From contig JANQKS010000040.1 in NCBI GenBank assembly GCA_028281005.1, forward strand, positions 1 to 64,000: a stretch of 64,000 nucleotides of DNA, read 5' to 3'. Made by a program: the position numbers and the translations under genes. Positions 15,161-35,853 of this stretch are shown here, piece after piece (the first letter of the stretch is position 1; every line of letters begins with the position of its first letter). Under the pieces are notes generated by a model. The model was not told the DNA's origin, did no database searches, and saw only the letters and a program-made list of their open reading frames with translations. Origin of the DNA: Pseudomonadales bacterium. GTDB lineage: Bacteria; Pseudomonadota; Gammaproteobacteria; Pseudomonadales; Azotimanducaceae.

Positions 15161-15496
15161 ATGAACGATATCAGCACCGCCTTAGACGAAAACCTGCAGC
15201 CGCCCATGGCCAATGGTGAGGTGCTGTTTGAACAGCCCTGGCAAAGCCGGGTGTTCGGCATGGCGGTGGCGTTACATGAGGCGGGCCTGTTCGAATGGTC
15301 TGAGTTTCAAGCCAGTCTCATCCGTGTGATTGGTCAGTGGGACCGCAGCGCCGAGGATACCGATCCGTATCACTATTACGATCACTTTCAGCAGGCTTTA
15401 AACGATTTGCTCGCCGCCAAAGGCCTGGTGAGCGAAGCGCGCTTGCGCGAACGTGAAGCGCAATACGCCGAACGTCTGCATGGGCACGATCACTGA
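15161..15496 (+). CDS. Nitrile hydratase accessory protein (P14K/NhlE-like activator)
   Basis: A protein of 111 residues with the pattern EVLFEQPWQSRVFGMAVAL, then GLFEWSEFQASL and DPYHYYDHFQQALNDLL, characteristic of the small nitrile hydratase accessory family. Such proteins resemble a beta-subunit N-terminal region and deliver the alpha chain and its cobalt by subunit swapping. I start it at the ATG at 15161; a TTG at 15143 would add six residues without better signals. It is the last gene of the plus-strand set and converges on selU, with overlapping 3' ends (15490-15496). Histidines at the very end (HGHDH) could bind metal. Confidence 0.88.
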   Translation: MNDISTALDENLQPPMANGEVLFEQPWQSRVFGMAVALHEAGLFEWSEFQASLIRVIGQWDRSAEDTDPYHYYDHFQQALNDLLAAKGLVSEARLREREAQYAERLHGHDH

Positions 15497-16587
15497 GGCT
15501 GCGCCAACTCTGCCAAATAGTCTTCGACCGCCCGCATGCTGCCGCGAAAGCGGATGCGCTCCTCTTTGCGGCTCAACTGATAGTCGTACATCGGGTCGTA
15601 GTATCCCTCAAGCAAGCACGCTACCCAGGCTTCATGCGAACCTTGGCCGTTAAATGCGGCGTTGAGCAGGCTATTAATCTCGGCGTACAGCACCCCGCCT
15701 AAGCGACGCGAGATACGTTGCAGGCTGTCGGCATAACGCTGCTCAAGTGCGTGTGCAGGTTCGCCCGCCGCGAGGGGTTCGCTGACGTACTCCTCGACGA
15801 TGTGTTGCACCCGCTCCTGCGGGCTGGCCTCAAGCAAAACCAGGGGCGCTTGTTGCATACACACGTGCCAGCTGGCGGGCAAGGCCAAACGGCCAATGGT
15901 GCGGCTTTCATCTTCCAACACCAACACGTCCTGTTGATGTTGGAGGTAGGCGCAAGCCAAGCTGTTTTCAAAGCTGGCGGGGTAGGGTTGGGGCTCTACG
16001 TGCGCACCGAAGGCGGAACCGCGATGGCGGGCTAACTTCTCCAAGTTGATGCTATTGTTGAGCCGCTCGATCAGCACCGTCTTTTGCACCCCGGTACGCC
16101 CGGCGACCACCCACCATCGTTTACCCTCACCGGGCGCAGTGTCCAGAGTCTCTAAACAAGCTCGACGCAGGGCCTTATAGCCGCCGGGGACACGTTCTAC
16201 ATCGCAGCCTTGGGTGCCCAACCATTGTTGCGCCAACGCCGAACGCTGGCCACCGCGCCAACACAGGATGCGCGCACTTGGGTGTGCGGTGAGAAATTGC
16301 AACCATGCGTCGATGCGTTCTGCTTTCACTGTACCGCTCACCAGTTTGTGCCCTAACGCCGCTGCTGCCGCACTGCCTGAATGTTTGTAGGTGGTGCCAA
16401 CTTGGGCACGCTCTTGGTCGTTTAATATCGGCAGATTGGTGCTGTTGGGGACAGCACCCTGGGCAAACTCTAAAGGCGCGCGCACGTCCAATAGGGGCGT
16501 ACCCCGCAGCAGCAGCTGTTGCGCGGCGTTGCGCGCATGCGACTCACGCAGTTGGCCGCTAGGGCGCTTGTTCGGTAATGGTGGCAC
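15490..16587 (-). CDS. selU: tRNA 2-selenouridine synthase (SelU/MnmH)
   Basis: Rhodanese domain followed by a P-loop domain, the composition of SelU, which converts wobble 2-thiouridine to 2-selenouridine in tRNA using selenophosphate. Seen are LLDVRAPLEFAQGAVPNS, the rhodanese catalytic loop ILCWRGGQRS with its cysteine, LARHRGSAFG, VLVLEDESRTIG and EGYYDPMYDYQL. The Walker A motif is unusual: GRTGVQKT, with glutamine in place of the last glycine. The open frame extends far upstream as a shadow of the neighbouring gene. Homology starts near LRESHARNAAQQ, and GTG at 16587 is the nearest ordinary start, overlapping the previous gene by 29 bases; this start is uncertain. Its presence implies selenophosphate synthetase (SelD) elsewhere. 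Confidence 0.9.
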   Translation of the reverse strand: MPPLPNKRPSGQLRESHARNAAQQLLLRGTPLLDVRAPLEFAQGAVPNSTNLPILNDQERAQVGTTYKHSGSAAAAALGHKLVSGTVKAERIDAWLQFLTAHPSARILCWRGGQRSALAQQWLGTQGCDVERVPGGYKALRRACLETLDTAPGEGKRWWVVAGRTGVQKTVLIERLNNSINLEKLARHRGSAFGAHVEPQPYPASFENSLACAYLQHQQDVLVLEDESRTIGRLALPASWHVCMQQAPLVLLEASPQERVQHIVEEYVSEPLAAGEPAHALEQRYADSLQRISRRLGGVLYAEINSLLNAAFNGQGSHEAWVACLLEGYYDPMYDYQLSRKEERIRFRGSMRAVEDYLAELAQPQ

Positions 16588-18217
16588 CGGCTTTAAACAG
16601 TTCCAGGTGGCCTTGCAGGATTTCGAGCACGTCTTCACGCTGCTGCTCCGTGGCCACTTCAATGGCGCGCTCCTGCAATGAGATGGCGCGTTCGAAGTCG
16701 CCGCTGGCGGCATAGGTAGCAGCCCAGGTGTCCAGGTACTCGGGCCGCTGGCGGGCATCTTCGCTGGTTTCCATGAGCGTATCCATGATGCGTCGGGCGA
16801 AGTTAGTGCGTTGTAAACCTTCGACGTCGGACACCGTCAATGTCCAAGCCACCTCGTTGATGATTTCGGCGTCTTCGGGGGCGGCTTTGACGGCTTTTTT
16901 GTACCAGCGCACAGCGTCCCTGTTGGAGGCCGGCGTTGCAATGCCGCGGGCGTGGAGGTTGCCGAGAATCACCATGGCTTCTGCTTCCGCATCGTCTGCC
17001 AGGCCTTCCAACCATTCATGGATGGCGCCGGTTTCTTTGCTGACATCGTCGCGCTGGGCAGAGAGGAAACGACCGTAACTCAGAATGGCCTGAGTGTTGT
17101 TCAGCGCGGCGGCGCGGGCAAAGTATTGGGCCGCCTTGGCCGGGTCTTGGGGGACTTCGCGCCCGGTATTGTGCAGGTAACCCATGTACAGCAGCGACTC
17201 GGGGTGACCCAGCTCACCGGCTTGGCGCAGCAGCGGTACGGCGGCGCTGCGGTTCTCTTCGCCGTAGTAGTCGTTGATGTACAGATTGGCCAACGTATAC
17301 ATGGCTTCGGTGGAACCCATGGCGATGGCGTGTAGGTAGTTTTCCATCACCAGGTCGAGCAACTCTTGATGCTCCTGCTGGTCTTCTTCGTTGTCTTTGC
17401 CGTCTGCCTGGCGCAGGTAAAGGCGCGCTAAGGAGATGTTGGCCAACACGTTGCCGGAGCGGGCCGCTACCTTAAACCAGCTCACCGCATCGTCGTAGCG
17501 CTGGCTGCCCATCATCATGCGGCCAATGGTGGTTTGCGCGGCGGAATCCATACGCGCCGCCAGCACTTGCAGCAAGCGCCAAGCATGTGGATCCGAGGCG
17601 TTGTTACTTTCCACCGCGCGCACCAGATGGCTGAGGTCGAAGTGGCTGGATTGCAGCCCGGCACTTTCCGGCTTGCTGACCAGCAACAGGTGCATGGAAG
17701 ACATATCGGTCACGCGGTACATCGAACCCACCGGCTGTTTGCCTTGGCTGCGGGCATACGCGTGGGCATCGTAGGTGGTCATGATTTTATAAGGCGCCGC
17801 TGCCGTGCCGCTGGCTGCACCGCTGCGCATGTAGGCCTGTATCTGTGCAAGCGCCGCGTCGTGGGTCGCTTTGGCATCGAGGGATTCAACATGGGCATAG
17901 AAGCGGCTCATGACGTAGTGCCCGGTTTGACTGCTTGGGAACACGTCAAGAATGGCGGAGCCGATGCTGCCCAGTTTCAACGGTTCGTCCACGGCTAACT
18001 GCAGGGCTTGCTGCTCAAGCTCTAACAGGCGCCGTAACCGTTCGGCAAGATCCGGCGCTGCTAAAAAAGCTTCGCGTTGGGCATCCAACTCTGCAATCCT
18101 GGCGCTATCCAGGCGTTGATGTGATGTGGCTTCTAGATTGGCGACGGGGCTTGTGCCAGGTGCAACTTGGCACCCCCACCCGAATGTGAGCAGGCACAGA
18201 AGGAAAAAAATTCGCAT
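16559..18217 (-). CDS. Sel1/TPR-repeat lipoprotein
   Basis: A 552-residue protein with a lipoprotein signal peptide (MRIFFLLCLLTFGWGC, cysteine 16 as the lipidation site) and many Sel1-like and TPR-like helical repeats between about residues 220 and 480, for example YDDAVSWFKVAARSGNVLAN, STEAMYTLANLYINDYYG, HPESLLYMGYLHNTGREV and AEAMVILGNLHARGI. A TPR-type unit (ATYAASGDFERAISLQERAI) closes the protein. Such repeats mediate protein-protein contacts; the location is expected to be the cell envelope. The ATG at 18217 is chosen because it begins the signal peptide. selU overlaps its 3' end. The specific role is unknown. Confidence 0.85.
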   Translation of the reverse strand: MRIFFLLCLLTFGWGCQVAPGTSPVANLEATSHQRLDSARIAELDAQREAFLAAPDLAERLRRLLELEQQALQLAVDEPLKLGSIGSAILDVFPSSQTGHYVMSRFYAHVESLDAKATHDAALAQIQAYMRSGAASGTAAAPYKIMTTYDAHAYARSQGKQPVGSMYRVTDMSSMHLLLVSKPESAGLQSSHFDLSHLVRAVESNNASDPHAWRLLQVLAARMDSAAQTTIGRMMMGSQRYDDAVSWFKVAARSGNVLANISLARLYLRQADGKDNEEDQQEHQELLDLVMENYLHAIAMGSTEAMYTLANLYINDYYGEENRSAAVPLLRQAGELGHPESLLYMGYLHNTGREVPQDPAKAAQYFARAAALNNTQAILSYGRFLSAQRDDVSKETGAIHEWLEGLADDAEAEAMVILGNLHARGIATPASNRDAVRWYKKAVKAAPEDAEIINEVAWTLTVSDVEGLQRTNFARRIMDTLMETSEDARQRPEYLDTWAATYAASGDFERAISLQERAIEVATEQQREDVLEILQGHLELFKAGATITEQAP

Positions 18218-33162: not shown

Positions 33163-33765
33163 TTACTCTTCCCGACTGCGGCCTCCCCAAATGGAGGGGC
33201 CGTAGCCTGGGTGTAAGTCTTCTTTGTCGAAGTAACCCCAATCCGCATCCCGATGGCAGTCTTTACAGGGCGCTAAATAGCCTTCGGGAAATGTCTCCAT
33301 CTCCAGCTGCTCGGCCACTTCTTGGTGCGCATCCAAGAAAGCCGGCAGTTCACTGATGCGCAGGGGTGGGTCCGTCGGTAGGTTACGCAGCATCTCACTG
33401 ATTTGTGTTGGTTTTCCTGGCCGTAAGGCTTCAGCGGCCAGGTAGTCGGACAAGTGGGCGGCACTTTCATCATCAATGGAGGCGTCTTCCCCAAAGTGAT
33501 CTTCCAACCCCGCCATAACTTTTTCCCAACTGGCCTGGGGTAACAGGCCGGGCGCGTAGTCGAGGTGACAAGCCCCGCACTCTTCGGTGTACAGATCGTC
33601 CTTCTTGTAGGGCACATCCAACGGCGCTTGGGCGTAGCTGACCACGCCGGAAATACCGAAAATCAGTACCGCCCCGAGCAGGGTGCTACCCAATAAAGTT
33701 TGTGGTCGAGACAGTTCGGCGGGCCCAGGCGTCTCGGGTTTTCGGTCTGGGTGCTGTGATTGCAT
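33163..33765 (-). CDS. Diheme cytochrome c (DHC family)
   Basis: A 200-residue protein with an N-terminal membrane anchor or uncleaved signal (TLLGSTLLGAVLIFGISGVV, residues about 27-46) and two c-type heme sites: CGACH near residue 63 and CKDCH near residue 168. The segments between (LLPQASWEKVMAGLEDHFGE, then AAHLSDYLAAEAL) match the dihaem cytochrome c (DHC) family, which transfers electrons to the sphaeroides heme protein SHP. It is the last gene of the four-gene minus-strand operon AhpD-like, cytochrome b561, SHP, DHC, beginning 9 bases after the SHP stop. Confidence 0.9.
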   Translation of the reverse strand: MQSQHPDRKPETPGPAELSRPQTLLGSTLLGAVLIFGISGVVSYAQAPLDVPYKKDDLYTEECGACHLDYAPGLLPQASWEKVMAGLEDHFGEDASIDDESAAHLSDYLAAEALRPGKPTQISEMLRNLPTDPPLRISELPAFLDAHQEVAEQLEMETFPEGYLAPCKDCHRDADWGYFDKEDLHPGYGPSIWGGRSREE

Positions 33766-33774
33766 AAAATGTCC

Positions 33775-34176
33775 TTACTGATCTCTCAGCCAGGTGAGAA
33801 TATCGCCTTTTTCTTGGGCGCTGCACTCGCGACCAAAGGTCCACTTGCAGTTGCGTTTGAACCATTTGTTGATTTTTTTGCGCTCCGTCAAACGTTCTGG
33901 ATTAACCGAAGGTGCCATGGGCGCTATGACCTTACCGGTGCGCTCATGCCGGCCTTCCACAAACAGAGAATCGGTGTGACATGACGGGCAGCTGCGACCG
34001 TCGACATCGCGATACCAGACAGCCTCGCCGGCTGCGGCGTTAAATGGTGTGGCCGCTTCGCTTTGCCACTCCTTAAGCAAATCGTCAACGACGTTGGCGT
34101 GTGTCTCCAAGGGTGCGACGAGCGAACATAGGAGTAACAAGCACGTTGGTTTAGTGCTTTTGGTGGGGCGATTCAT
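33775..34176 (-). CDS. Sphaeroides heme protein (SHP) homologue, oxygen-binding cytochrome c
   Basis: A 133-residue exported monoheme cytochrome with signal peptide, heme motif CPSCH near residue 64, and the family block GKVIAPMAPSVNPERLTERK followed by NKWFKRNCKWTFGRECSAQE, diagnostic of SHP (DUF1924). In Rhodobacter SHP the sixth iron ligand is an asparagine that leaves upon reduction so that oxygen or NO can bind; the asparagine of KRNCKW is the likely counterpart. Two cysteines (NCKW and RECS) may form the conserved disulfide. Its start overlaps the cytochrome b561 stop (ATGA). Partners are the DHC and b561 genes on either side. Confidence 0.93.
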   Translation of the reverse strand: MNRPTKSTKPTCLLLLCSLVAPLETHANVVDDLLKEWQSEAATPFNAAAGEAVWYRDVDGRSCPSCHTDSLFVEGRHERTGKVIAPMAPSVNPERLTERKKINKWFKRNCKWTFGRECSAQEKGDILTWLRDQ

Positions 34177-34751
34177 GATTGTTTCTTTTTGCCGGTAATC
34201 ATGGCCGCAATCAAATTCTGCTTATGCAAGAAACTGGTGACCAGCACACCGACGACGTGAACGATCACCAACACCAGCGTGGTATCCGCCAGCCAGCCGT
34301 GCCATTTCTCCACGGTACCGCCATGCCAATCAATCACCATGGCGCCCAACGCGGTGCCAACAAAGGGTCCGCTGCCTTCCATGGTAAACAGCACGGTTCC
34401 GGTGAACGCGGTAGCCGACAGGCACATTAACAAAACCACAATCATGACTGCGCCGGCGGGATCATGACCGCTAAAGCGGGGGGCTTGGCGTGCCAGCAGC
34501 TGTTGCAGATACAGCCATGTCGAGCTGGGTTTGGGCCAAAAGTCGGCCCAACGAGCATGTTTAGCGCCGATCACACCCCACAAGATGCGAAACAACACCA
34601 ACAAAGCGACGGTATAACCCGCGTGGCTGTGCAACACTGGTTCACTGCCTTCCAATAGATAAGCAAGCAGAAAAAAGGCCGCCAGCGACCAATGAAAGGT
34701 GCGGACCAGCGGATCCCAGGTCTTAACCGTAACGGGCGGACTTTTCGCCAT
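34173..34751 (-). CDS. Cytochrome b561-family membrane protein
   Basis: A 192-residue integral membrane protein of the bacterial b561/Ni-Fe hydrogenase cytochrome b type. Four hydrophobic helices are apparent, with heme-ligand-type histidines in VRTFHWSLAAFF, VLHSHAGYTVAL, EKWHGWLADTTL and LVIVHVVGVLV. Such proteins pass electrons between quinol and periplasmic cytochromes. I start it at the ATG at 34751; the open frame continues far upstream only as a shadow. It overlaps the end of the AhpD-like gene by 29 bases and the SHP start by four, so it lies inside a tightly coupled redox operon. Confidence 0.9.
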   Translation of the reverse strand: MAKSPPVTVKTWDPLVRTFHWSLAAFFLLAYLLEGSEPVLHSHAGYTVALLVLFRILWGVIGAKHARWADFWPKPSSTWLYLQQLLARQAPRFSGHDPAGAVMIVVLLMCLSATAFTGTVLFTMEGSGPFVGTALGAMVIDWHGGTVEKWHGWLADTTLVLVIVHVVGVLVTSFLHKQNLIAAMITGKKKQS

Positions 34752-35787
34752 AGTCAAAGCGTTGTATGCCGGTTTCTTCACGCAGGTCGGCGGTGCTCTC
34801 TGCGGTAGGCTGATCCAGCGGTATCCCGGTAGCGTCCGCCACCCGCGTAATGCCGTTAAACGCGGCGGCGACGGTGAGCGCATCCAGGGTTTGTTGGGCG
34901 CCCATGGCGGCTTCCGCCTTGGGTCGGATGTCCGCCAAGGCCAACCAATCCCCATGAATGGCTGCTTCGGTCAGCGCGCGCAGCCAATCGCCATGGGGTA
35001 CGCCGGGATCGATGCTGTCACTGGTGACACTGTTGATGTTATAGGTTTCGCTGTCTGACTGGCCGCTCACCCGGAGCAACATGGTGTGTGAGGTGGTTCA
35101 GTAAAAACACTCATTGATCGCAGATACCCGTGCTGCGACAAATTCCGCTTGTGCCTGGCTGATGGACAATGCAATGTCCTTCAACGCGTAGTGCGGACGG
35201 AAGGTGGTGAAAAACAGCGCCAACGCGCTCGGCACCAAGCCCAGAGATCTGGCGATGTTCGGCACTCTGGGTAAGCCGGTGTCCGCCATGGTGGCGTCCG
35301 CGTCCAGTACCGGCACCCATGCGCCGGCCTCAACAGCGTCTGGGTTGTGTTGGCGACGCGGGCGCCCGCTTTCAGGTTGTGGTAACGGCGGCAAACCTAA
35401 TCCCACGGCATTGTGCATGGTGTCGATAATGACTGAGCTGGTGACCACACTCACAATCTCGACATATTCCTGTTTGCTGATGGTTTTGGTGACCGTGTTG
35501 AACCATGCGTGGGTCAAGCGTCCGGGGTCGGTGCGGATGCGATGGATCATATCGACGATGACTGGGTCCATGCTGCCGCTGTGGTCATGTTCGCCGGTCA
35601 CGCTGTTAGGGCTAAGCGCTTGTTTGCGGCGTTCGCAAAATTCGCACGTTAAGGCCTCCCTCGCGGTACGCACCATGGCCACGCGATCCGCTCCGCTGAA
35701 AAAGTCTCCCGCGCGTGCTATCGCCTGCCAAGTCTGTGTGTGTGCTTGTTTCAGGTGTGGCGCTAAACGCACGTGATCCGGATACAT
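34723..35787 (-). CDS. AhpD-like alkylhydroperoxidase, predicted selenoprotein with in-frame UGA (Sec230)
   Basis: The frame from ATG 35787 (AAGGAGGGAG site just upstream) runs 229 codons to a TGA at 35100-35098, then continues in the same frame for 124 more codons to TAA at 34723. Around the TGA the protein reads AINECFY-U-TTSHTMLLR. This is the AhpD active-site motif CxxC-x3-H with selenocysteine for the second cysteine (Cys227-x2-Sec230-x3-His234). The sequence after the TGA (LDALTVAAAFNGITRVADAT and GIPLD) is strongly AhpD-like, so the second half is functional sequence. An N-terminal half carries another CxxC (CEFC, residues 48-51). A hairpin follows the UGA at SECIS distance. Expected role: thiol/selenol peroxidase or reductase. 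A sequencing error or a real nonsense mutation are the alternatives. First gene of the b561-SHP-DHC operon. Confidence 0.85.
35063..35096 (-). promoter_or_regulatory. Candidate bacterial SECIS hairpin after the in-frame UGA
   Basis: On the coding (minus) strand, CUCAC (nt 6-10 after UGA) pairs with GUGAG (nt 28-32), with CC/GG (nt 14-15 and 26-27) closing a 10-nt apical loop containing AUGUUGC; CC/GG at nt 2-3 and 34-35 can extend the base. A GU lies at nt 18-19 after the UGA, similar to the loop position in E. coli fdhF. Pairing is modest and needs comparison with homologues. Confidence 0.5.
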
Positions 35788-35853
35788 GGCCTCTCCCTCC
35801 TTAACAACGCCCGAGCGTATAGAATAGAGCGGCACACGATAAAAAGGTACTCC

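Follow-up and report, generated by a model that had tools for sequence, protein, structure and literature searches.

Selenoproteins related to the peroxide-reducing protein family AhpD have been predicted from marine metagenomes, and they provide the closest described systems for the gene considered here. In the passage of a 2026 review that deals with these proteins (PMC13188914), the family NF041238 is described as an "AhpD-related protein (hypothetical protein 1, Sargasso Sea metagenome)" with a CxxU motif. The corresponding passage of the 2005 Sargasso Sea selenoproteome (PMC1088965) reports four hypothetical protein 1 sequences and treats them separately from AhpD-like. A full-text literature search for NF041238 found no paper besides PMC13188914, and one for selenoprotein together with K189A found no papers.

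The gene lies in the window, that is, the whole stretch of 64,000 nucleotides that was analyzed, and its product resembles NF041238/hypothetical protein 1 in its full-length match, its CFYUT motif and its CxxU. There is no family-defining difference from NF041238; the window copy falls in a subclade whose members are 55-70% identical within the genus, apart from a 37%-identical paralogue type. The AhpD-like 1 (COG2128) and AhpD-like 2 (pfam02627) families of the marine surveys share with the window protein an AhpD-type core and, as listed, CxxU. They differ from it in that the 2005 survey, in the passage cited above, separates AhpD-like from hypothetical protein 1, and in that the window protein scores only 32.0 bits (cut-off 81.8) on TIGR01926 (peroxidase-related enzyme), the profile that the review passage links to AhpD-like protein (PMC13188914). 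The initial annotation had cited AhpD-like selenoproteins from marine metagenomes as precedent; the closest precedent is NF041238 and not AhpD-like 1 or 2. The AhpD-family structures 6k40, 2oyo and 2o4d/PA0269 share the relay of E, C, Y, Cys/Sec and H, and the first two align over residues about 150-322. In contrast to the window protein, however, these chains carry Cys in place of selenocysteine (Sec), are 165-197 residues long and have no counterpart of the additional N-terminal half, which spans some 150 residues and includes a CxxC of its own.

The gene and its family

On the minus strand of the window, positions 35787-34723 form a single frame that runs from an ATG at 35787 to a TAA at 34725-34723, with the TGA at 35100-35098 as its sole interruption. 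The initial annotation had joined two ORFs (35787-35098 and 35082-34723) across this TGA, and its coordinates were right. Translation of the TGA as Sec yields 354 residues, with U230 within INECFYUTTSHTMLLR, and restores the AhpD motif as CxxU-x3-H with C227 and H234 in place, again as had been proposed. The six frames of the window contain 1904 TGA triplets, 7 of which are flanked on both sides by at least 100 open codons; among these 7, CxxU-x3-H occurs only at the U230 site and CxU at one other. The features of the locus are collected in Table 1.

Table 1. Features of the selenoprotein locus (window coordinates)
Feature	Position	Strand	Basis
Selenoprotein gene, NF041238 family, 354 residues with U230	34723..35787, stop codon included	-	frame, translation, profile match
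In-frame TGA read as selenocysteine (U230)	35098..35100	-	translation; homologues have TGA at the same codon
Ribosome-binding-site-like AAGGAGGG ahead of ATG 35787	35795..35802	-	sequence
N-terminal C48-E-F-C51, second CxxC, kept in most aligned family members	35635..35646	-	alignment
bSECIS-like hairpin: 7-bp stem 35080-35074 with 35068-35062, loop CGGGU 35073-35069	35062..35080	-	folding, conservation
Cytochrome b561 gene, start overlaps end of selenoprotein gene	34173..34751	-	neighbour

In profile scans run with Cys substituted for Sec, the protein matches NF041238 (AhpD_rel_CFYUT) at 418.4 bits against a cut-off of 175, over residues 10-345 and positions 3-356 of the 357-position profile, and the CFY(U/C)T motif of that family falls at residues 227-231. 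The TIGR00778 AhpD core domain is also found (31.8 bits, cut-off 27.8, residues 209-247), whereas the paralogue P0002 stays under that cut-off at 22.7 bits; Pfam CMD is barely over (23.4 vs 23). On TIGR00777, the profile for AhpD proper, the score is 22.2 bits against a cut-off of 191.95, and the protein is therefore called AhpD-related rather than AhpD. The likeness to AhpD is confined to about residues 150-323. It is nearly certain that the locus is one gene for a full-length NF041238 (AhpD-related, CFYUT) selenoprotein, with Sec inserted at position 230. The family is already named and known, and the locus adds a further member. The description of the gene as unannotated and split by standard gene callers is correspondingly weaker, in that NCBIfam, NCBI's naming source, already covers this (seleno)protein with an equivalog model.

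One might instead suppose that the frame encodes two separate proteins, or a purposeful truncated product of 229 residues, with the ORF 35082-34723 translated from its own ATG. An ATG does follow the TGA in the window copy (at 35082), and among 95 family sequences 40 have an ATG at codon +6 and 45 have one at codon +7. Its position is not fixed, however, and it is missing there in L029 and L031-L034 (TTSHTLLLR). Separate proteins would also place the relay residues on separate chains, and the Cys homologue L062 (see below) is one continuous chain. Such an arrangement is very improbable.

Conservation of the in-frame TGA

A second copy of the gene in the same genome, on contig C57, is 37% identical and has TGA at the same codon. 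This paralogue (L002:1462-2592, minus strand) has 376 residues with Sec at residue 248, and lies between a peptidase-like and a carboxylesterase-like gene (names by reading of the ORFs). Long matches are present in 30 of 58 close genomes (own genome included in both counts), and the sequences from these genomes that span the site have TGA in 45 of 46 cases and a Cys codon in the remaining one (L062). L067 is a fragment that falls short of the Sec site, and L051 has an additional TAA. The close genomes also gave shorter, stop-free matches at E about 1e-7 to 1e-4; these represent other AhpD-type proteins, which rank below the family.

Among named genomes, a single-protein query found no loci and an alignment query found 271, of which the best 80, those most like the Sec queries, were kept. 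By record title these come from Pseudomonadales, other Gammaproteobacteria, the K189A clade, Myxococcota, Deltaproteobacteria and others. All of these best 80 of 271 have TGA at the site, and the matched stretch has exactly one TGA and no other stop in 78/80. The exceptions are L146, with one further stop, and L136, whose stretch is not a multiple of three and contains three TGA, while its own frame shows the Sec motif. Twelve of the 80 loci (L078 included) were read by coordinate, and each has one TGA and no other stop. The comparison with AhpD-like proteins that the initial annotation had suggested therefore places Sec in this column, with Cys in one homologue. The homologue sets overlap and share ancestry, so that they are not independent counts.

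These data bear on the suggestion that the TGA either genuinely ends the gene or arose in assembly, with the 3' part a decaying remnant. A single TGA does split the frame, and the genome is a draft (5.1 Mb in 135 contigs, 98.7% complete, 2.0% contamination). A pseudogene or sequencing error would not, however, account for a TGA that is shared by the paralogue and by every one of the kept named homologues, and non-synonymous divergence from 11 relatives is alike on the two sides of the TGA (0.210-0.316 before, 0.205-0.335 after). No dN/dS ratio is claimed, because synonymous sites are saturated (pS 0.58-0.84). The earlier argument that the 3' part is unlike a pseudogene is borne out, and the chance of decay or error is slight in the extreme.

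The only Cys homologue seen among the relatives examined, L062:1566-2708 (plus strand), comes from G030, a genome in which Sec copies and selB are retained. In a midpoint-rooted tree of 36 proteins without an outgroup it nests among Sec members, with support of 0.998 for the 18-sequence clade that contains it and 0.24 for its immediate placement. In its version of the hairpin described below, A replaces the loop G and the top pair is broken. The nesting of L062 among Sec members suggests a Sec-to-Cys replacement with loss of the element, in this one case.

The active site

The residues around U230, E215-x11-C227-x-Y229-U230-x3-H234, have the spacing of the AhpD proton relay, and E215, C227, Y229, position 230 and H234 are invariant columns among 61 aligned proteins. 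In the relevant passage of PMC3141380, the relay consists of Glu36, Cys48, Tyr50, Cys51 and His55 in PA0269, and of Glu118, Cys130, His132, Cys133 and His137 in Mycobacterium tuberculosis AhpD. By this shared spacing, Sec stands where the relay has its second cysteine. When the family profile was compared with solved chains, AhpD-family chains were matched (best 6k40 at 3.2e-12), and in the two alignments examined the solved chain has the second Cys of its CxxC in the Sec column.

The N-terminal half contains the second CxxC, in which C48 is invariant and C51 is present in at least 90% (alignment A4). The motif is absent from a subgroup (L048, L050 and L063) that keeps the Sec site, and L035 and L036 are without its second Cys; the C48/C51 pair is therefore not essential to the whole family. 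An origin of the N-terminal half by internal duplication of the AhpD domain was considered and is unproven, as the profile comparison of the two halves covers 14 columns with E 0.078.

The hairpin downstream of the TGA

The bSECIS model, as given in a passage of the review, calls for a loop of 3-9 nt with G in its first two positions, a stem of 4-16 bp, a spacing of 16-37 nt and an MFE of at most -7.5 kcal/mol (PMC13188914). In a by-hand comparison, the hairpin downstream of the TGA fits this model, with a 5-nt loop, G at loop position 2, 7 bp, a gap of 24 nt between TGA and loop, and an MFE of -8.2 kcal/mol. Stability alone is no evidence, since 183 of 200 shuffled sequences fold at least as well (z +1.22). 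The initial annotation, which had noted a hairpin at SECIS distance, is upheld as to fit, but the evidence lies in the conservation of the hairpin and not in its folding energy.

The conservation of the hairpin was assessed in several ways. With an alignment of 45 sequences (A2) as input, RNAalifold gave no base pairs. In those 45 sequences, standard pairs are formed in 87.0% of 315 cells and 11 cells are changed on both sides; none of 500 shuffles reached the observed pair share, two-sided cell count or covariation score, kinship being uncontrolled in this comparison. The number of pairs with two-sided changes and the number of extra pair types were unexceptional (192/500 and 165/500 shuffles). 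The two outer pairs are broken in 21/45 and 17/45. Of the 80 kept named loci, 79 were scored: all four inner pairs are formed in 77 and three of them in the other 2, and G is at loop position 2 in all 79.

The strongest RNA evidence is the constraint on synonymous codon choice, because here the background codons share the same kinship. Across 95 distinct coding sequences (close-genome and named loci, the Cys copy left out), synonymous departure from the gene-wide pool is highest at codons +8 to +11, the inner stem and loop of the hairpin, where it is 1.77, 1.73, 1.40 and 1.43, against a background with mean 0.29, SD 0.13 and maximum 0.72. At the stem ends, codons +6 and +12, the value is 0.73. 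For Leu +8, 87 of the sequences use CTC and 8 use CTT. Codon +9 is mostly Arg, yet CGC, which makes up 40% of the Arg pool, never occurs there.

Selenocysteine machinery

Weak matches to tRNA-Sec, selB, selA and selD also occur in control genomes (14, 14, 4 and 14 of 14 genomes, respectively, with 5, 2, 1 and 2 over cut-off), and for this reason only matches over cut-off were used. The initial annotation had called for selA, selB, selC and selD to be sought in the same genome, and all four are present there, each over its cut-off: tRNA-Sec at 71.7 bits (cut-off 47; ARAGORN also calls SeC), and, over the curated cut-offs, selB at 451 bits, selA at 537 bits and selD at 277 bits. All of them are on contig C47. 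SelD (L178:16317-18407, minus strand) carries a fused pyridine nucleotide-disulphide oxidoreductase domain, and its gene adjoins a DsbA-like gene.

A gene for the tRNA 2-selenouridine synthase MnmH/SelU is located in the window at 15490-16758 on the minus strand (NF008751, 405.5 bits, cut-off 361), and represents a second use of selenium in the organism. Its presence had been offered in support of the selenoprotein reading; it does mark selenium use, but SelU/MnmH is not part of Sec insertion.

The gene and selB occur together in 22 of the 58 close genomes, the own genome being one of the 58; 8 genomes have the gene without selB, 9 have selB without the gene, and 19 lack both (Fisher p = 0.0034, uncorrected for kinship). 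The 8 gene-bearing genomes without selB over cut-off, out of 30 with the own genome counted, include five that are 58-73% complete; the other three are G009 (96%), G029 (91%) and G031 (90%). One related genome, G047, has selA, selB and tRNA-Sec downstream of the gene (384-1469) and on its strand (L179:384-5335, plus strand).

UGA read-through is known in bacteria, but that the codon is read here as tryptophan or another standard residue instead of Sec is scarcely credible, given that the aligned residue is Cys in L062 and in the two solved chains, that Sec-tRNA and selA/B/D are present, and that the hairpin region is under constraint at the RNA level.

Distribution and neighbouring genes

A match over cut-off was found in 137 of 206 genomes of the taxonomic family. 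An in-frame TGA is present in 150/150 of the matches listed, its position not being given; among these matches, which do not include L062, 148 have exactly one TGA, one has two and one has a TGA and a TAG. Many genomes of this gammaproteobacterial family have NF041238 in several copies. The gene is in 2 of 21 genomes from other families of the order. An even sample across the class gave some match at E <=0.001 in 84/369 genomes, all below cut-off except the own genome, the single one (1/369) over it. Records titled Myxococcota and Deltaproteobacteria contain members of the family as well. Copies were sought on plasmids and viral contigs, and none was found there.

Two points count against a purely Sec family. 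The hypothetical protein 1 row in the 2005 table reads 4, 7, 0, 5 (PMC1088965), and the 7 and 5 are taken as Cys homologues, the column heads being outside the passage. The NCBI name "(seleno)protein" is the other.

On its 3' side (window 33163-34751, minus strand) the selenoprotein gene is followed by genes for cytochrome b561, a DUF1924 protein and a dihaem cytochrome c. A functional link to these was rejected, with 0 matches to any of the three at E <=1e-6 in 125 loci searched, many of which have short flanks or are cut by contig ends. The divergent upstream neighbour is an O-acetylhomoserine aminocarboxypropyltransferase, a PLP enzyme, which lies within about 2 kb of the gene in 12 of 14 window-type loci (L023-L036) and 19 of 80 loci in an overlapping set (L068-L147). 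Because all loci with an adjoining PLP enzyme are at least 51% identical to the window protein, this adjacency reads as local synteny of the window's subclade only, and a functional link was likewise set aside.

Proposed function and significance

During translation, SelB bound to Sec-tRNA would recognize the hairpin, which starts 18 bases after the UGA, and would then insert Sec at position 230; the presence of the machinery and the conservation of the hairpin are both consistent with this step. Failing Sec insertion, translation would stop after residue 229, and the product would lack U230, H234 and the rest of the C-terminus. The C-terminal half has an AhpD/peroxidase-related core with U230 in place of the second cysteine of CxxC. 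By analogy with AhpD, E215, Y229 and H234 may activate a selenolate at U230, which could attack a peroxide or disulfide substrate; C227 would resolve it to a selenenylsulfide, to be reduced in turn by a thiol donor. The proposed function is peroxide or disulfide reduction, by analogy with a remote fold family. A recycling role for the N-terminal C48/C51 pair is a guess.

A wider proposal is that NF041238 is a near-obligate hallmark selenoenzyme of the gammaproteobacterial family, that its single chain may hold two redox centres, with C48-x-x-C51 recycling the C227/U230 selenenylsulfide as a built-in electron relay, and that this enzyme may be a main reason the Sec trait is kept. The last point derives from the several copies per genome and from the position directly upstream of the Sec-insertion genes in G047. 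The proposal as a whole is unlikely, the more so in view of the Cys homologues of the 2005 survey and the occurrence of the family in other lineages.

With the TGA read as Sec, the reading of an apparently broken gene is fixed. The enzyme is common in one bacterial family (137/206), against 1/369 in the even class sample, and nearly every full-length member examined is a Sec form. The family is therefore a promising subject for finding out why selenocysteine is retained in some bacteria.
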